A stretch of DNA of 64,000 nucleotides from Sphaerochaeta halotolerans (GCF_003429665.1 NZ_QUWK01000006.1:62001-126000); one strand, 5' to 3'; counted from the stretch's first letter, positions 19,484-28,034 are shown. Made by a program: numbers and translations. Notes: generated by a model from the sequence alone, not told the origin.

Positions 19484-20045
19484 TCAACGTAACTGCACTA
19501 AAGCCAAGCTGCTATTTACGACTCGTTTAGCCTTCTGTGAGGCGAGCACATGTGAGAATGTAGTTCCGGAAAAAGCCCACAATGAGATTGCGGAAAAACT
19601 CATCATCGTAAAGAAGAGTGCACTGAGAAACAAGGCTGGTACGCTGTGGTTCATACTACTGAGAAATATAGTGTAAAGTGTAAGGGCAAGTACCAGTACC
19701 TTTGGATTGAAGAGCTGAAGCAATAACCCATCCTTATAATCCAGCAACTTGGAGCCCTTTTGAGAGAGCGTATAGTCTGCATGCAGTACCCGATAGGCAA
19801 GATAGAGGATGTAAGCCGCTCCCAGATATTTGCATAATCTCAGGAAGAATGTGAGCAACGAGCGATACAAAGATCCCACAAATCAGCATGATGGAGAAAA
19901 AGCCGGTTGCAATTCCCAGGAAATACGGCATGCTCCGCTTATACCCCGCCTGCATGCCCATGATTGCACATCTGATGGTGTTTGGACCTGGGGTAAACGT
20001 AGTCACACATGCAAATATGAACACTGAAACATAATCAATCTCCAT
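19484..20045 (-). pseudogene. LysE/RhtB family amino-acid exporter with a frameshift
   Basis: The first frame (20045 down to about 19845) gives the family N-terminus with TTFTPGPNTI and two hydrophobic helices. A second frame continues with LCKYLGAAYILYLAYRVL and further helices to a stop at 19484. The switch between frames near 19845 needs only one inserted or lost base, inside the third helix. Joined, the product is about 187 residues, close to the usual ~200. It may be a true pseudogene or a sequencing error, since no second lesion is visible. Confidence 0.8.
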
Positions 20046-20136: not shown

Positions 20137-21426
20137 TTAGTACTGCTTCGGTCCTGCAGCAAGAGCCTGCTCAACCAAGGCATAGAAATTGCTGACACTC
20201 ATGGTTGCACCAGCAATATCATCGGTATGGCCGCCATCATCCTTGTAGCTGATCTGCGTAGGATCCTGGGTGGAGAGCAGGTATGCTTCGACTGCAGCAG
20301 CCTGTTCATGCCAACCCTTGCCGATTTCACTGTGTGCTATCATCCCATACCCACCTTCAGCAGCAACCTGTTTCTTGTCACGACCGTCCTTGTCCACTCC
20401 ACTCCAGTAGACGCTTTCAATGTTGCCATTGTTGACCAACAAGGAAACATACCCTTTCCAACCGGATGAGCTGAAAGTCTCATCACTGGCATAGTAGGAA
20501 CCATCCTGGAAAGGACCGATTTCATTTGGGCCAGCTGCAAGCGCTTCCTTGGCAAGATCATAGAAGGCATTAACATGGATGGAGACTCCTGCAATATCAT
20601 CAGTATGGCCCTCGTCATCTTTGTACGTAATACCTTCAAGGTCCTGGGTCTCAAGCAAATATGCTTCAGCCTTGGCAGCCTGTTCATACCACTCTGCCTG
20701 TGCACCACCGAACTTAACCATATTGTAGTTTCCAGCCTTGTCATACGGCTTCTTGTCATCGCCAGTTCTATTGACTGCGCTCCAGTTGACAGCAGCAATA
20801 CGTCCATTGAGAACGGTCAAGGATACATATTCTTTCCAACCGGAGGAAGGATAAGAATCTGCTATGGCAAAGTATGCTCCATCCTCATAGGGGCCACGGC
20901 CAACAGGACCGGAAGCAAGAGCTTCGCTGGCAAGGTCGAAGAATGCATTTACATGGACGGAGACCCCTGCGATAGCATCGGTGTGACCTTCAGCATCACT
21001 GTAACTAATGGCAGTAGGGTCCTGGGTCTCAAGCAAATATGCTTCAGCCTTGGCAGCCTGTTCATACCACTCTGCCTGCGCATTACCGAACTTGACCATG
21101 TTGTACTTACCAGCTTTATCATAGCTTTTCTTGTCCGCACCAGCATTGATGTTCACTCCATTCCAATCAGCATCAATGATTTTTCCACCTTCGACAGTAA
21201 GGGTCACTGTCTCCTTCCATCCGGAAGAAGCGAAGCTGTCAGCTGCTGCGAAATATACGCCATCTGCGTATGTTCCAGTTGCCACAGGTGCCGTTGCAGA
21301 AACAGTCGGTGCAGCTTTCGGTGCAGCAGTAGCTGCCTGGGTTTCTTCACTCTCTGACTTGGCACAACCAGCAAAGGTAAGCATGATAGCCAAGACGGTC
21401 AGAACCAGCAATAGATGTTTTTTCAT
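20137..21426 (-). CDS. lipoprotein with three tandem FMN-binding domains (PplA-like)
   Basis: A 429-residue exported lipoprotein: signal peptide with lipobox LTFAGC (Cys21), then an Ala/Pro linker and three copies of a ~125-residue FMN-binding domain (PF04205 type, as in RnfG, NqrC and Listeria PplA). Each copy begins DG.Y.A.......SGWK and ends at G-H-T-D-x-I-A-G. ApbE attaches FMN covalently to a Ser/Thr in this region. Domain 3 has the canonical IAGATMS; domains 1 and 2 have IAGVSVH and IAGVSIH. Domains 1 and 2 share a 60-nt identical stretch at 126-codon spacing. GAGGAG precedes the start. It is divergent from ndh2, suggesting a partner in quinol-to-flavin electron export. Confidence 0.85.
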   Translation of the reverse strand: MKKHLLLVLTVLAIMLTFAGCAKSESEETQAATAAPKAAPTVSATAPVATGTYADGVYFAAADSFASSGWKETVTLTVEGGKIIDADWNGVNINAGADKKSYDKAGKYNMVKFGNAQAEWYEQAAKAEAYLLETQDPTAISYSDAEGHTDAIAGVSVHVNAFFDLASEALASGPVGRGPYEDGAYFAIADSYPSSGWKEYVSLTVLNGRIAAVNWSAVNRTGDDKKPYDKAGNYNMVKFGGAQAEWYEQAAKAEAYLLETQDLEGITYKDDEGHTDDIAGVSIHVNAFYDLAKEALAAGPNEIGPFQDGSYYASDETFSSSGWKGYVSLLVNNGNIESVYWSGVDKDGRDKKQVAAEGGYGMIAHSEIGKGWHEQAAAVEAYLLSTQDPTQISYKDDGGHTDDIAGATMSVSNFYALVEQALAAGPKQY

Positions 21427-21493
21427 CGTAAGATACTCCTCAAATACTTGAAAATCGTTCGAACATTATCTATATATAATCATATACTGATTT

Positions 21494-21522
21494 TTGACAC
21501 ACATGCAATATCGTCATAAAAT
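21494..21522 (+). promoter_or_regulatory. strong forward promoter 360 nt ahead of ndh2
   Basis: Consensus TTGACA (21494-21499) and TAAAAT (21517-21522) are 17 nt apart. Transcription from here would give a long leader or a separate small RNA through the structured stretch 21657-21709. Confidence 0.5.
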
Positions 21523-21656
21523 TATCAATAGTAATTTTTAGTAACAATAAATTGTCATTATTTACTTATATTTAATAATGTTATACAGAATAGTATACCC
21601 ATTGCTTTACTCTGATATCAAAAATGTGTCAAAAAAAAATTTACAAATTTCTTTAC

Positions 21657-21709
21657 GGTAAGTACCGCTCGCAGGAGCATTACCTTACAAGGAACGAACT
21701 CCTGTAGCG
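21657..21709 (+). other. structured RNA candidate in the divergent intergenic region
   Basis: CGCT-cg-CAGGAG (21666-21677) pairs with CTCCTG-t-AGCG (21699-21709). GTAAG/GGTAA at 21657-21662 can alternatively pair with CTTAC/TTACC at 21680-21688 inside the loop. This gives mutually exclusive folds. No known riboswitch consensus, including the FMN element, was recognised. The rest of the 455-bp gap (21427-21881) is AT-rich and codes for nothing I can see. Confidence 0.35.
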
Positions 21710-21752
21710 CATGAATAAATAAGGATTTGTGTATTTTGTATCGATAAAAACA

Positions 21753-21761
21753 TGGTATAAT
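21753..21761 (+). promoter_or_regulatory. extended -10 promoter of ndh2
   Basis: TGG-TATAAT is a perfect extended -10. The predicted start near 21768 gives a leader of about 114 nt. The -35 region is weak, as expected for an extended -10. Confidence 0.55.
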
Positions 21762-21806
21762 TGCATTAATTCCTAGTTTTATGCTAGAGTGTTTTCTTAT
21801 GAGACC

Positions 21807-21839
21807 AGGTGGGGTGGTAATACCTTTTCTCACCTTTTT
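21807..21839 (+). terminator. possible attenuator in the ndh2 leader
   Basis: AGGTG (21807-21811) pairs with CACCT (21831-21835), with an inner GGT/ACC pairing, followed by T4. It lies between the extended -10 promoter and the ribosome-binding site. The stem is short, so the call is tentative. Confidence 0.3.
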
Positions 21840-21881
21840 ACTATATCTCTCTGTACCCGCACAGGGCCAACAAGGAACGTG

Positions 21882-23822
21882 ATGATGGACAAGAAACAGA
21901 TTGTTATTTTGGGCGGAGGCTATGCAGGAGTGCATGCAGCAAAAGCACTGCACAAGGCATTCAAGAAACAGAAAGACAAGGTTGAGATTACCTTAATCGA
22001 CAAGAACAGCTACCATACTCTTATGACTGAGCTGCATGAGGTTGCAGGAAATCGTGTTGATGAGGAATCGGTTAAAATTTCTTATGATCGCATTTTCTCA
22101 GGTAAAATGGTGAATGTTGTACAAGACAAGATCACCAATATCGATTTCAAAAAGCAGGTACTTACTGGAGAGAAGTCAACCTACTCCTATGACCAACTTC
22201 TGATCAGCACAGGTGCCCAAACTGCCGATTTCAATATACCTGGGGTAAAGGAACATGCCTTCTACCTGTGGGGCCTCGAGGATGCACTGAAGCTCCGCAC
22301 CCATATTGAACACACGGTACGTGAAGCCGCTAAGGAAGTCGACCAAGAAAAGCGCAGAGAGATGCTTACCTTTGTAGTTGCAGGTGGTGGCTTTACCGGT
22401 GTAGAGATGATGGGTGAACTGATAGAATGGCTTCCCGTCCTCTGCAAGAAACACGGTATCGACTTCAAGAAAGAAGGGCGATTGATCAACTGTGAGGGAC
22501 TGGGAAATATCCTGAACATGCTTCCAGAAAAACCACGGGAAAAAGCGGTCAAACGTATGGAAAAGAAGGGTGTTGAAATTATGCTCAACAGCCTGATCAC
22601 CAATGTCGAAGCAGATAGGTTCACCACCAAGAATGGGGATGTCATAAAGACCAGAACCCTGGTTTGGACCTGTGGAGTACGTGGTACTGAATTCTGTGAG
22701 AGGCTTCCCCTCTCCGATGGGAAAATCGGGAGAAAAGCCGTAAACGAGTTCATGCAGAGCCCCGACTACCAGAACGTCTATCTTGCCGGCGATGGAATGT
22801 GGTTCATCGAGGATAATCGTGCAGTCCCGCAGATTGTTGAGGCGGCAGAACAAACTGCAAAGACTGCTGCTGAAGGTATTATCTATACCATCAAGCAAGA
22901 ACTTGGATTGGATGCAACGCCACCAAAACCATATAAATCTAATTTCCATGGGTACATGGTATCCATCGGAGGGACCTATGCGGTAAGCCACACAGCGGGC
23001 ATCTCTCTTTCAGGATTCTTTGCCGTCGCACTGAAGCATCTCGTTAATCTGTACTATCAGAGTGGGGTTTGTGGAGTCAATGCAATCTGGGCATATATCA
23101 AGCATGAAATTCTCGAGGTCAAAGACAAACGTTCGTTGATTGGCGGACTGGCTACCTACAAAATTCCTTCCTATTGGACTGTGTTCCTTAGAATGTACCT
23201 TGGTGTCATGTGGCTCATCGAAGGTATCAAGAAGATCGCGGAAGGCTGGCTTACCGATACCACTGGGTCGAAGGTATACTGGGGAGCCCCTGCAGATGCA
23301 GGGTCAGCAGACAGTTTGGCATCTGCAAGCCAAGCAGCAGTGGAAACAGTAGTGGAAACAGTAGCATCTGCAAGCCAGGCGGTAGGGGACGCTGCTTCTG
23401 GTGCAGTCCAACAGCTTGCACCTCCTCTGCTCTCTCAGCCTCTTGGAATCTTCACATGGGTCAATGATACATTCGTTGCCCAAGTTCCTTATTTCTTCCA
23501 GATCATGATTGTCCTTGCAGAGACGGGTATTGGACTCCTGTTCCTTGCCGGTCTCTTCACCTTCCCGGCGGCCATTGTATCCATCGGCCTCTCTATCACA
23601 TTCCTCATCGGTGCAATGGCAGGCAAGGAAATCCTTTGGTACATAGCAGTATCCATTGTCATGCTCGGTGGAGCTGGAAAGGCCTTTGGATTGGATTACT
23701 GGGTCATGCCATACATAAAGAAACTTTGGAACAAGACCCCATTTGCAAAGAAAACCTATTTCTACCTCGACGAACCTGAATTCACACGGAAACAGATGGA
23801 AAAGAAGTTGGGCAGGAAGTAG
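21882..23822 (+). CDS. ndh2: type II NADH dehydrogenase with C-terminal membrane (DoxX-like) extension
   Basis: A 646-residue protein. The N-terminal ~410 residues are a monotopic NADH:quinone oxidoreductase: FAD fold ILGGGYAGVHAA near residues 9-20, NADH fold VVAGGGFTGVEMMGEL, and VYLAGDGMW for FAD closure. Ordinary NDH-2 ends near 400-450. Here a membrane part follows with a helix (YWTVFLRMYLGVMWLIEG), an Ala/Ser-rich linker, and three or four further helices resembling DoxX. The same layout is known for the Ndh2 of Listeria extracellular electron transfer. ATG 21882 (or 21885) is chosen because AAGGAA lies just upstream; the longer frame from GTG 21789 adds non-homologous residues. The stop is 6 nt before the prenyl synthase gene. 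Confidence 0.88.
   Translation: MMDKKQIVILGGGYAGVHAAKALHKAFKKQKDKVEITLIDKNSYHTLMTELHEVAGNRVDEESVKISYDRIFSGKMVNVVQDKITNIDFKKQVLTGEKSTYSYDQLLISTGAQTADFNIPGVKEHAFYLWGLEDALKLRTHIEHTVREAAKEVDQEKRREMLTFVVAGGGFTGVEMMGELIEWLPVLCKKHGIDFKKEGRLINCEGLGNILNMLPEKPREKAVKRMEKKGVEIMLNSLITNVEADRFTTKNGDVIKTRTLVWTCGVRGTEFCERLPLSDGKIGRKAVNEFMQSPDYQNVYLAGDGMWFIEDNRAVPQIVEAAEQTAKTAAEGIIYTIKQELGLDATPPKPYKSNFHGYMVSIGGTYAVSHTAGISLSGFFAVALKHLVNLYYQSGVCGVNAIWAYIKHEILEVKDKRSLIGGLATYKIPSYWTVFLRMYLGVMWLIEGIKKIAEGWLTDTTGSKVYWGAPADAGSADSLASASQAAVETVVETVASASQAVGDAASGAVQQLAPPLLSQPLGIFTWVNDTFVAQVPYFFQIMIVLAETGIGLLFLAGLFTFPAAIVSIGLSITFLIGAMAGKEILWYIAVSIVMLGGAGKAFGLDYWVMPYIKKLWNKTPFAKKTYFYLDEPEFTRKQMEKKLGRK
23319..23377 (+). repeat. 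short in-frame repeats encoding the ndh2 linker
   Basis: GCATCTGCAAGCCA occurs at 23319-23332 and 23364-23377. TGGAAACAGTAG is tandemly duplicated at 23341-23364. Together they encode an Ala/Ser/Val/Thr-rich linker between two membrane parts, a likely site of length variation by slippage. Confidence 0.7.
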
Positions 23823-23828
23823 GCAATC

Positions 23829-24815
23829 ATGTCAGATTTTTGGGACGATGAGCCTCACATCCAAGCACAACTCCAGGTAGTCCGAAAAACAATTGGGCAA
23901 ACCGTTGCCACCGCACATGGTTTTATCAAGCCAATTCTTGAAGATTATGTGAACAGCACCGGTAAAATGCTTCGTCCTGCCTTAGTGCTCATCACCAGTA
24001 TGATTGGTAATCAGGATCGCAGCGAGGATGCTATCAGGGTGGGCTCAGTTATTGAGCTCATCCATCTTGCATCATTGGTGCATGATGATATTATCGACCG
24101 AGCCCCAAAACGACGAGGCAATACTTCTGTCTATGCGAAGATAGGCGCTAAACAGGCTGTACTGGCAGGAGATTTTCTCCTAGCACGTGCTTTGTCACTT
24201 GTCAGCGGAAAAGAACGGGGCGGCGATAGCCAGGTTGTATCACGAGCGCTGACGCGTCTCTGTGAGAGTGAACTTGAACAGGATGCTGGACAAGGAGATT
24301 TCTTCATAGACCGAAACACCTATCTTCGTCGGATTGGTGGAAAAACCGCCAGCCTTTTTGCACTAAGCTGCTACAGTGGTGTAGCGCTGCAGGAAATCAA
24401 TGAAACAATGAACAAACTTGCCCATCGCATTGGTTACTGCATGGGAATGGCATTCCAGATTCAAGACGATATTTTGGATTATATCGGAAGTAGCAAAAAA
24501 CTTGGCAAGCATACCGGTGGTGATGTGAAGAGCGGTATTCCTACCCTACCGCTTATCTGTGCCTTGGAACTAGAGAACGAATGGGGCAAACAAGAATTGA
24601 AGAACGTACTCACGGACAGAAAAATCCCGTTGGACCAACGTACCACCAAACAAGTTCTCTCACTGGTGGAAGAACTGGGTGGTATACAAAAAGCGCAATT
24701 TCTTGCAGAATCCTATAAGATGCGAGCTTTGGAAGAGATACACCGCCTCGGAAACCCTGAGGTTGAGCGTATGTTGATTTCCCTGTTTGAAAAATTATCT
24801 GCTCGCTCAGTATAG
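23829..24815 (+). CDS. long-chain polyprenyl diphosphate synthase
   Basis: A 328-residue trans-prenyltransferase that builds the isoprenoid tail of quinones. Both aspartate-rich motifs are intact: DDIID (HDDIIDRAPKRRGNTS) and DDILD (QIQDDILDY). The length fits octaprenyl/heptaprenyl synthases. It starts 6 nt after ndh2, so the quinone-reducing enzyme and a quinone-tail enzyme are co-transcribed, paralleling the ndh2/dmkB pairing of the Listeria electron-export locus. The chain length cannot be read from sequence alone. Confidence 0.88.
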   Translation: MSDFWDDEPHIQAQLQVVRKTIGQTVATAHGFIKPILEDYVNSTGKMLRPALVLITSMIGNQDRSEDAIRVGSVIELIHLASLVHDDIIDRAPKRRGNTSVYAKIGAKQAVLAGDFLLARALSLVSGKERGGDSQVVSRALTRLCESELEQDAGQGDFFIDRNTYLRRIGGKTASLFALSCYSGVALQEINETMNKLAHRIGYCMGMAFQIQDDILDYIGSSKKLGKHTGGDVKSGIPTLPLICALELENEWGKQELKNVLTDRKIPLDQRTTKQVLSLVEELGGIQKAQFLAESYKMRALEEIHRLGNPEVERMLISLFEKLSARSV

Positions 24816-24823
24816 GAATTGTT

Positions 24824-25096
24824 ATGGATACTACATATAATCTTGATGCTGATCTCAGCGGTGAAGAACGAGTCTTCCATGATTCGTATGATAGGACACT
24901 GCTGTACCTTGAAAATCGACAAAAAATGGCACCTGTGTCTTTGATTGTTCTTGAAGGAGAGCTCCATCATCTCACAGTTTATGAAGGACAGGATTGGGTG
25001 GGGCGTGGCGAATTGAAGAACAGCGAGATACAGGGGCAGATTTACGCCTACATTGCATTCATCGGCAAGATGAAAGAAGAGCTGCAGAACGAGTAA
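24824..25096 (+). CDS. 90-residue protein of unknown function in the ndh2 operon
   Basis: I do not recognise this protein. It has no signal peptide or membrane helix, is acidic and predicted compact (a central VSLIVLEGELHHLTVYEG strand pair). AGGA precedes ATG 24824, which lies 8 nt after the prenyl synthase stop, so it is the last gene of the ndh2 operon. It may be a real accessory protein or a small conserved cytoplasmic protein unrelated to the pathway. Confidence 0.6.
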   Translation: MDTTYNLDADLSGEERVFHDSYDRTLLYLENRQKMAPVSLIVLEGELHHLTVYEGQDWVGRGELKNSEIQGQIYAYIAFIGKMKEELQNE

Positions 25097-25130: not shown

Positions 25131-26274
25131 TCAACCAAGCAACGTCTTCTGACCATCCAAGCTTCTCAGCCCAGAAATTTCCTCTGTTACTTCAAGCACA
25201 CCATGATACTCCTGATTGTTGTTTCTCACGGCATAGTAACGGATCAAGATGAACTGGGAACCCTTTTGGATCCAGAAAGACCCATTGCCCTTTCTCCCTG
25301 CCTTGAAGTCAGAAATCAGCTTCTCCACCACTGCAAGACTCTTCGGTGGATGACAATGCTCAACATCACGTCCGATGATACTCCGTGTTCTCGGGAAGAT
25401 ACGTTCCTTGCCCTCACTGAAGAAGCGGACCTTGTCATCGGCTCCAACAAAGGTAATATCAGAGAGTAGGGTATTCAGCGTCCAAGCCAACTCTTCCAAG
25501 GTAAAATGACCACTGGGAAGTTTGATTTCTCCACTTACTTCCTGATTGGGGATAAAGTCATCCTTGCCGTTCATACTCGCATTCCAGCGATACCAGGTGG
25601 CTGCATCAGAAGGGCTTGCTTCTTCGATGCCACCACCATTGAAACAACATCCGATTTCGGTACTATCGCGAGCAACGGTCAACAAAGCATCATTGTCCAT
25701 GCAACCATGAAGCATTGGTATGAGGATGTTGTTCTCTTTATCAATCATGCTTCTCACCTGTTTTTCAACGCGGGCAAGCTCACTCTCAAGTACCTCTCCG
25801 TTGGTTTCCAATGTACGGATCAGTAGCTTGTACATCCCCCTGATTTCATCATCAACACCCCACATCACCTTAGGAGGGGCGGTAATTCCTGCCTTCTCAA
25901 GGTAAGGGAAAAGGAGGTTCTCTTTTCTGGAATAGTGGTTGTCAATCTTGCTGAGACTCTTGAGTGCTGCCAAGAGATCAGCTCATGTCCGTTCATTATT
26001 ATCAGAGTTACAAGCTTTTACTGCCGTTGTAAACACTCCATCCAGAAAAGCGAGCAATCCCTCATTTTCCTTGAGGAACACAAAGGCAGGAAGGCCTGCA
26101 GTCTACTCTATGGTTTGTCCACCATTGATCTCTTCCACACTCCCGCCAAAAATGGAAGCATGTACATCACAGAGTTTCTGCACTTGTTCTTCGTTAATCT
26201 TTCCTTCTTCAATCAGTTTCTTTTCAGCTGTAGCTAAGTCTTCTGCACTGATGGTCCCGAATTCTGTTTCGTAT
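25131..26274 (-). pseudogene. DUF438/PAS hemerythrin-like gene with in-frame stops and lost 5' end
   Basis: One continuous minus-strand frame gives KLCDVHASIFGGSVEEIN, then a TAG, then FVFLKENEGLLAFLDG, then a TGA, then an HHE-like helix set (NHYSRKENLLFPYLEK) and a PAS-like C-terminus. The order matches DUF438 proteins, which combine a DUF438 helix region, a hemerythrin-like metal site and PAS. The family's first ~25 residues are missing: a TAA sits upstream with no start codon. Lost start plus two stops in the same frame mark an old pseudogene. The intact 280-codon 3' part might still be expressed from an internal start. Confidence 0.85.
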
Positions 26275-26302
26275 TAATTCCTACCTACATGATTTGAATG
26301 CT

Positions 26303-26960: not shown

Positions 26961-26989
26961 TTGCTAATAGCAAGTAATTGTGTTATATA
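26961..26989 (+). promoter_or_regulatory. promoter with palindromic operator ahead of the permease pair
   Basis: TTGCTA (26961-26966) and TATATA (26984-26989) are 17 nt apart. The -35 is embedded in a perfect 13-nt palindrome TTGCTAATAGCAA (26961-26973), well placed for a repressor. The predicted start is ~23 nt before the ribosome-binding site of the first permease. Confidence 0.4.
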
Positions 26990-27018
26990 TTGCCATATCT
27001 TTAAATGAGGACCTCTCC

Positions 27019-27504
27019 ATGAATCTGATACTCTATAGTGCTACAGCACTTTTATTGATGCTTTCGTTTCTTAAGGACAAGGAGAAAACAAAGAATGCGC
27101 TCAAAAAAGCGTGGAAAGCGTTTGAAAACATTCTTCCCCAATTTCTTGTCGTGATTCTTTTGGTAAGCCTCCTCCTCAGCGTTCTCGACCGCGAGACCAT
27201 CGTGAAAATCATCGGCAAGGAATCAGGATTGACTGGGATTGTCTTGGCCGCTGTTGTAGGATCTATTACCCTGATACCCGGCTTTATAGCATTCCCCACT
27301 GCAGCATTACTGCTGGAGGGAGGAGCTGGGTACATGCAGATCGGGGTCTTCATATCAACACTGATGATGGTAGGTGTTGCAACCCTTCCTGTTGAGATAC
27401 AGTATTTTGGGAAACGCTTGGCACGCTACCGAAATACACTTGCCTTTATATTCTCATTCATTGTTGCCTACGTCATTGGAAAGGTTCTGGAGGTGGTGCT
27501 TTGA
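27019..27504 (+). CDS. half-size DUF318/YraQ-like permease, first subunit
   Basis: A 161-residue membrane protein with four or five helices. KIIGKESGLTGIVLAAVVGSI and IPGFIAFPTAALLLEGG are typical of the YraQ/UPF0718 permease family (ArsP-related). Full members are ~300-350 residues; here two half-size proteins are made from adjacent genes. ATG 27019 with GAGG upstream is used rather than the ATG at 26980, which falls in the promoter region. The transported substrate is unknown. Confidence 0.75.
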   Translation: MNLILYSATALLLMLSFLKDKEKTKNALKKAWKAFENILPQFLVVILLVSLLLSVLDRETIVKIIGKESGLTGIVLAAVVGSITLIPGFIAFPTAALLLEGGAGYMQIGVFISTLMMVGVATLPVEIQYFGKRLARYRNTLAFIFSFIVAYVIGKVLEVVL

Positions 27505-28034
27505 CAGCTATGGTGAAACGCTACAGTTCTTTCCTGCTTGTTCTTGTAATGCTTGGGGGTATCAGCCTATTCAACCAAGAACTGGGAAAAGGTGTATTCG
27601 ATATCACGATCATGCAGCTTAAGGAAATGCTACTGGTCATCCCCCCTATCTTCGTCTTGTTGGGCTTGCTTGATGTGTGGGTACCCAAACAGACAATGGT
27701 AAAATTCATGGGCAAAGGCAGTGGATTGAAGGGCATCCTACTCTCTCTGCTTATCGGTTCTGCTGCAGCAGGGCCTCTCTATGGGGCATTTCCAGTAGCG
27801 GCGGTGTTTATGAAAAAGGGAGTGACATTCCCCAACATCCTCATCTTCATCGGGGCATGGTCCACGACCAAGATACCTATGATTCTCTTTGAGTTCTCAG
27901 CTTTGGGTGCACCCTTTGCACTGACACGACTGCTTATCGACATCCCGGGTATCATCATCATCGCTTTCCTACTGCAAAAACTGATGGGCAGGGATGAGAT
28001 AGAGGCAATCTACGAGAAGGCAAGAGCACAGTAG
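27501..28034 (+). CDS. half-size DUF318/YraQ-like permease, second subunit
   Basis: A 177-residue membrane protein with about five helices. It repeats the family motif seen in the first subunit: FMGKGSGLKGILLSLLIGS and AGPLYGAFPVAAVFMKKG. The start is TTG 27501, overlapping the previous stop by 4 nt, with GGAGG 8 nt ahead. The two halves probably form one transporter. It converges with the Fnr-like regulator gene. Confidence 0.75.
   Translation: MTAMVKRYSSFLLVLVMLGGISLFNQELGKGVFDITIMQLKEMLLVIPPIFVLLGLLDVWVPKQTMVKFMGKGSGLKGILLSLLIGSAAAGPLYGAFPVAAVFMKKGVTFPNILIFIGAWSTTKIPMILFEFSALGAPFALTRLLIDIPGIIIIAFLLQKLMGRDEIEAIYEKARAQ

Follow-up and report, generated by a model that had tools for sequence, protein, structure and literature searches.

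The locus and its NADH dehydrogenase

The window analysed here is a stretch of 64,000 nucleotides of the Sphaerochaeta halotolerans genome (G000:C46:62001-126000; an essentially complete draft of 2.93 Mb). It was re-examined, and all of the module parts named in a preliminary description of this DNA were found in their places, including a lipoprotein gene divergent from the operon claimed there, which encodes an extended type II NADH dehydrogenase (NDH-2) and a polyprenyl diphosphate synthase (PPS); a 90-aa ORF was recognised as its third gene. The features are as follows:

20137..21426, minus strand: triple FMN-binding lipoprotein (PplA-like), 429 aa, with FMN_bind repeats and lipobox
20905..21270, minus strand: FMN_bind repeat 1 (aa 53-174), site DAIAGVS at 20959-20979
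20527..20889, minus strand: FMN_bind repeat 2 (aa 180-300), site DDIAGVS at 20581-20601
20149..20511, minus strand: FMN_bind repeat 3 (aa 306-426), site DDIAGAT at 20203-20223; the sole Pfam-recognised repeat
21427..21881, no strand: divergent intergenic region, promoter-like sites at 21494-21522 (plus, 11/12) and 21621-21592 (minus, 10/12)
21882..23822, plus strand: type II NADH dehydrogenase with C-terminal membrane extension (Ndh2-like), from profile, tree and fold
23166..23819, plus strand: DoxX-like membrane extension of the NDH-2, from profile matches and relatives
23829..24815, plus strand: long-chain polyprenyl diphosphate synthase (DmkB-like), from PF00348, TIGR02748 and DDxxD motifs
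24824..25096, plus strand: 90-aa ORF after the PPS, from conservation; no family match in profile searches

The order and orientation of the lipoprotein, NDH-2 and PPS genes were constant in 7/7 inspected loci of the genus, and the conservation of this arrangement is therefore well above chance. The PPS matched PF00348 (205 bits) with both DDxxD motifs present, and it scored 209 bits against TIGR02748, under the model cut-off. The 90-aa ORF lies directly 3' of the PPS gene in most inspected genomes of the genus (55-87% identity) and is also kept there in some sister genera. The intergenic region is well conserved in one relative; over the whole scanned stretch the promoter scan gave 10 sites where 8.1 were expected, a count that is not significant and shows no excess over shuffles.

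Other genes of the window flank the module. A LysE-family exporter gene (19484-20045, minus strand) is frameshifted here and intact (197 aa) in close relatives. A DUF438-hemerythrin-PAS gene (25131-26280, minus strand), possibly encoding an oxygen or redox sensor, has in-frame stops in its N-terminal third, is intact (407 aa) in relatives and is the module's neighbour in most genomes of this genus. Two adjoining half-size ArsP_1-type permeases (26980-28034, plus strand) form a pair that several relatives also have beside the module; others have a single gene.

The NDH-2 gene starts at ATG 21882 or 21885, behind AAGGAA. The N-terminal ~400 aa of its product resembled the Caldalkalibacillus NDH-2 in Foldseek (TMt 0.93-0.94), and the C terminus forms a membrane extension of ~245 aa. 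The preliminary description had called this extension DoxX-like; its membrane character stood, but the DoxX match was weak here, the window protein scoring 19.6 and 17 bits against DoxX/DoxD, both under the cut-offs, for which reason only DoxX-'like' is used, while 22/33 of its NDH-2 relatives matched DoxX at E<=0.01.

Since the catalytic domain has the ordinary NDH-2 fold, the locus could be read as an ordinary respiratory NDH-2 and its quinone pool beside an unrelated lipoprotein. Enzymes of that kind have ~400 aa without an extension and group with YjlD/4nwz, and neither is true of the window NDH-2. It was 92% identical to the partial NDH-2 of Sphaerochaeta sp. S2 and ~90% identical to that of another Sphaerochaetaceae genome, and outside its own family it shared 44-58% identity with NDH-2s of EetA/EetB loci, which have the extension in common with it, as against 31-34% with two ordinary NDH-2s. 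A 39-row tree, for which relatives were gathered by similarity and which held two ordinary NDH-2s (PDB sequences) and no Listeria Ndh2, placed the window protein among spirochaetal NDH-2s, adjoining clostridial ones from EetA/EetB loci, with a 100/100 branch separating the two ordinary enzymes from this group. As a sequence comparison the tree speaks against the ordinary type but gives no measure of closeness to Listeria Ndh2; the distinction from ordinary NDH-2 on which the preliminary description depended was upheld.

Co-occurrence bears on the same question. Among 139 genomes of the order, the lipoprotein was found in 36, the NDH-2 in 37 and a UbiA prenyltransferase in 36; lipoprotein and NDH-2 occurred together almost without exception, in 35 genomes (Fisher 3e-29), and lipoprotein and UbiA in 33 (Fisher 5e-25), p-values that ignore kinship, and the co-occurrence partly mirrors clade structure. 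Losses tend to coincide, as in G102, which has neither NDH-2 nor lipoprotein and whose UbiA is broken by a stop codon. Cytochrome bd was absent from all 139 genomes and no cytochrome-c assembly protein was found in G000, so these two usual quinol outlets, the ones looked for, are missing. An ordinary respiratory role is already disfavoured by this evidence and seems to us very improbable.

The triple FMN-binding lipoprotein and its flavin sites

The lipoprotein has a signal peptide and a lipobox, FAGC, at Cys21. Tandem FMN domains had been claimed for it, and the domains were confirmed, but 'tandem' understates their number: three repeats of ~120 aa are present, with motifs at residues 150, 276 and 402. 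Repeat 1 matched the C. thermocellum structure 2kzx (phmmer E=1e-40) and repeat 3 matched Pfam PF04205 (28.2 bits, cut-off 22), while repeats 1 and 2 were not recognised in the PF04205 scan. An AlphaFold2 model (pLDDT 86) contained one fold three times, and in a Foldseek search with this model only 2kzx and 3o6u passed E 0.001. The latter, CPE2226, is according to the authors of that work the closest structural homologue of the covalent-FMN domains of SaFMN3 and CbFMN4 (PMC10339131). With a signal peptide and more than one FMN_bind domain, the protein has the features by which multi-flavinylated extracytosolic proteins are recognised. It scored 98 bits against the exception-level NCBIfam model for PplA, NF041941 (cut-off 325), covering positions 3-250 of 302; by this alignment it is homologous to PplA, yet it falls below the threshold and so is not filed as PplA.

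The established ApbE motif is D-x-x-[S/T]-G-A-[S/T], and in tests an A-to-V change reduced flavinylation to ~50% in one model protein while T-to-S changes reduced it by 10-55% (PMC12052999); Listeria PplA is modified at two threonines (PMC8906456). The repeat 3 site, DDIAGAT, departs from this motif at one position, and the sites of repeats 1 and 2, DAIAGVS and DDIAGVS, depart from it at the fourth and sixth. Among the FMN repeats of relatives AGVS was commonest, DAVSGVT and DAISGVS also occurred, and one genus had three canonical sites. The terminal Ser/Thr was retained in the motifs found across relatives, and the site aspartate was present in nearly all repeats, in several genera; the remainder of the motif had exceptions in L017, where repeat 1 reads DAIASVS, and in L040, where a single motif was found.

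It could be that the AGVS repeats are unflavinylated and that the lipoprotein holds one FMN, in repeat 3, or serves as a flavin carrier with non-covalent binding, which is compatible with electron export as the main explanation. The lowered flavinylation of both substitutions in the tests cited above and the presence of AGVS in all three repeats of several relatives are in keeping with this; retention of the aspartate and terminal Ser/Thr across several genera argues against it, as do the graded intermediates DAVSGVT, DAISGVS and DDIAGAT, which fit continued selection for a hydroxyl attachment site. Loss of flavinylation at AGVS is in our view unlikely, and from the motif alignment we provisionally take these sites to be retained for flavinylation of serine. 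The AGVS repeats are a natural test of how much deviation from the ApbE motif is tolerated.

Other site types were seen elsewhere. Four-repeat FMN_bind proteins with AGVT/AGVS sites are encoded at L137:7967-9610 and L120:3122-4909, and one of the two belongs to a Clostridiales genome, so the A-to-V site also occurs outside the spirochaetes. In one genus, canonical DAISGAT-type sites are found in a three-repeat lipoprotein (L036:1489-2802) whose genome, G082, gave no NDH-2 or UbiA match.

Partner genes and supply of the quinone head

The preliminary description had found ApbE and EetA/EetB missing from the window, and both were located elsewhere in the genome. The single ApbE (C46:168703-169743), ~43 kb past the window end, has a signal peptide and a lipobox and is a predicted exported lipoprotein. 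Its second-best PDB match was 4ifu/4xdt (208 bits), which we take to be the ApbE of T. pallidum. The best was 7esa (266 bits), which is Listeria FmnB (PMC8906456), and the alignment pairs the catalytic residues TSG-YER, HH and D. Two further FMN_bind proteins of the genome are Rnf/Nqr-type subunits, which the lone ApbE must also serve, and its presence is therefore not specific to the module. The EetA-EetB pair lies at C46:188870-190475, ~63 kb past the window end (EetA, NusG_II 77 bits; EetB, PF07456 109 bits; no NCBIfam model matched either). The EetB-like protein has an additional C-terminal membrane half here, and the extra membrane protein that follows EetB, considered with regard to the flavin exporter FmnA, gave no family match.

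In this genus ApbE and EetA/EetB are thus distant from the module, and the single UbiA lies on another contig (C43). In sister genera the genes are contiguous: lipoprotein, EetA-EetB-EetC (EetC being the extra membrane protein beside EetA/EetB), ApbE and NDH-2-PPS adjoin in L048 and L050, and likewise in L047, L049 and L060 save that at one position the contig ends or EetB is unlisted, and in part in L052 and L055; a contiguous layout was also seen in L068, L071, L072, L075 and L108. Beyond the spirochaetes, an NDH-2/EetA/EetB/PPS core occurs with ApbE in Clostridium prolinivorans, C. drakei, C. folliculivorans and C. zeae and with no adjoining ApbE in Caloramator and Fusibacter, and NDH-2-EetA-EetB occurs in Vallitalea.

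Of the quinone genes, for which the preliminary description had proposed a search, those for tail and attachment were found. The UbiA was closest to 1,4-dihydroxy-2-naphthoate (DHNA) prenyltransferases (up to 168 bits against MenA models, below the cut-offs), and in two other spirochaetes (L097, L130) its relatives (42-44% identity) adjoin NDH-2 and PPS. The search for head-group enzymes covered MenD and MqnA/D. All 139 genomes of the order were without a MenD above cut-off, and there was no convincing MqnA/D match in module carriers. Because MqnA/D matches fell almost wholly in genomes without the module and no MenD passed its cut-off, the head group is probably scavenged or imported, as in L. 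plantarum, where Ndh2 and PplA carry DHNA-dependent electron export although a head pathway is likewise missing (PMC9888254, PMC10746273).

Two sets of matches were rejected. MenD matches at ~75 bits are acetolactate synthase, the one in this genome falling on an IlvB-like ORF in L043. PF02621 matches were set aside as evidence of the Mqn pathway in module carriers, almost all being in other genera; the only lipoprotein carrier with such a match was G096 (42 bits), an 80% complete MAG.

UbiD was found in seven genomes, 7/7 of them lipoprotein carriers (Fisher 5e-5), and the one UbiD scanned passed the menaquinone decarboxylase model TIGR03701 (660 vs 496). Four loci of this kind were inspected (L052, L053, L058, L061): behind the UbiD gene come those for an MqnP-like UbiA, for UbiX and for an ABC importer whose binding protein is of SsuA/NMT1 type, and the whole group adjoins the lipoprotein gene. 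An importer of this family is the neighbour of a MenA-type UbiA in two more loci, L108 and L075, from Pleomorphochaeta and a relative, and is also found inside the EET loci of C. drakei and Vallitalea; G000 had no UbiD and no such importer beside its UbiA. The importer loci are:

L058:11179-16498; L061, L053, L085; L075:2314-5787; L109:14059-16536; L126:8915-17601: SsuA/NMT1-type ABC importer loci

From their gene position these transporters are candidate importers of naphthoate quinone precursors, and together with MqnL/P/M they form a candidate salvage set in some relatives. A 2016 survey predicted that menaquinone-precursor importers exist, then unannotated (PMC4746308), and the recurrent ABC importer is a testable candidate for them.

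Proposed electron path and relation to known systems

All of the genes are present in one genome, and they are linked by homology, fold, conserved clustering and co-occurrence. In this Sphaerochaeta-type spirochaete the locus probably forms the core of a FLEET-type system, one for flavin-based electron export. We infer the path from NADH through quinone to FMN from Listeria and L. plantarum, and likewise infer covalent FMN and quinone scavenging. NDH-2 would oxidise cytosolic NADH and pass electrons to a membrane naphthoquinone, its tail made by the polyprenyl synthase and its soluble naphthoate head, probably from outside, attached by the lone MenA-type UbiA. The exported ApbE would attach FMN groups to the three lipoprotein repeats, EetA/EetB would relay electrons to them, and the lipoprotein FMN would reduce an acceptor outside the cytoplasm. 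The preliminary description had electrons pass from NADH via quinone to a surface flavoprotein; the partner genes and the NDH-2 grouping support this route, its quinone genes being those for tail and attachment, while the step beyond the diderm outer membrane is conjectural. Electrons might leave by way of a lipoprotein exposed on the surface or of soluble shuttles (flavin or quinone), or the chain might end in the periplasm.

In the last case quinol would reduce the FMN lipoprotein, which would feed a periplasmic reductase or detoxify oxygen or peroxide, making the system an NADH oxidase for oxygen tolerance and not one of extracellular transfer. The cell is diderm with no conduit identified, the operon adjoins in the genus the DUF438-hemerythrin-PAS protein, a Crp-family regulator and pyruvate formate-lyase, and SaFMN3, a three-FMN protein, is readily oxidised by oxygen once reduced (PMC10339131). 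However, sister-genus loci lack these neighbours and have EetA/EetB/ApbE, the genome yielded no FMN_bind domain in a protein of fumarate-reductase type, and the closest functional relatives reduce iron or electrodes. We regard a periplasmic end-point as rather unlikely and favour electron export.

More tentatively, and as a possibility we would hold with some doubt, the observations can be read jointly: Sphaerochaetaceae may export electrons cytochrome-independently across a diderm envelope in complete dependence on scavenged quinone heads, naphthoate precursors would enter through the SsuA/NMT1-type importers that adjoin MqnL/P/M or a MenA-type prenyltransferase (in the EET loci of relatives, in C. 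drakei and in Vallitalea), and ApbE would flavinylate serine in the relaxed AGVS site.

The usual view of this spirochaete family is that its members are plain fermenters. If the module works, the cells could rid themselves of reducing power beyond the cytoplasm with no need of cytochromes. This would help to explain the family's presence in iron-reducing and electrode communities, and the cells would depend on neighbours for quinone precursors; the apparent lack of a head pathway suggests such scavenging.

Several known systems can be compared. The late futalosine enzymes MqnP/MqnL/MqnM have counterparts in some relatives, whose UbiD passes TIGR03701 and whose UbiA is MqnP-like; these stand without MqnA/D, beside the SsuA/NMT1-type importer and inside EET loci, and are absent from the window's genome. 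Treponema pallidum, with a flavin-trafficking ApbE and the flavinylated lipoprotein Tp0171, is likewise a case of periplasmic flavinylation in a spirochaete. No NDH-2 or Eet genes are known from T. pallidum itself. Multi-flavinylated proteins (PMC8238504; SaFMN3/CbFMN4, PMC10339131) are also extracytosolic with several FMN_bind repeats of the CPE2226 (3o6u) fold; SaFMN3/CbFMN4 have DxxxGAT sites, whereas AGVS predominates here and the partner set is that of FLEET. FLEET has been proposed in Gram-negative PVC-group lineages, Ca. Effluviviacota (PMC11323493) and Shingomicrobia (PMC12057145), likewise from genomes and outside Gram-positives but in another phylum; the available sections of these two papers name no spirochaete and do not raise quinone-head supply. 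In the open-access literature, as far as its text was available, our search found no description of FLEET in spirochaetes, and one may exist.

The closest likeness is to FLEET itself. Listeria monocytogenes exports electrons with an extended Ndh2, the quinone-tail enzyme DmkB and the FMN-lipoprotein PplA. The full set in L. monocytogenes and Lactiplantibacillus plantarum comprises Ndh2, PplA, EetA, EetB, DmkA, DmkB, FmnA and FmnB, and this genome has homologues of Ndh2, PplA, EetA, EetB, DmkA, DmkB and FmnB: an extended NDH-2, an exported FmnB-like ApbE, the NusG_II/PF07456 pair, and a tail enzyme with a DHNA prenyltransferase. The one-locus arrangement is split in this genus and contiguous in sister genera. 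Unlike the Listeria and L. plantarum systems, this one has a diderm host, three FMN repeats as against the two attachment sites of PplA, AGVS-type sites, dispersed genes, an EetB with an extra membrane protein fused to it or encoded after it, and no DHNA pathway enzyme found. The module is a diderm version of the known Listeria-type system, with a three-flavin protein.
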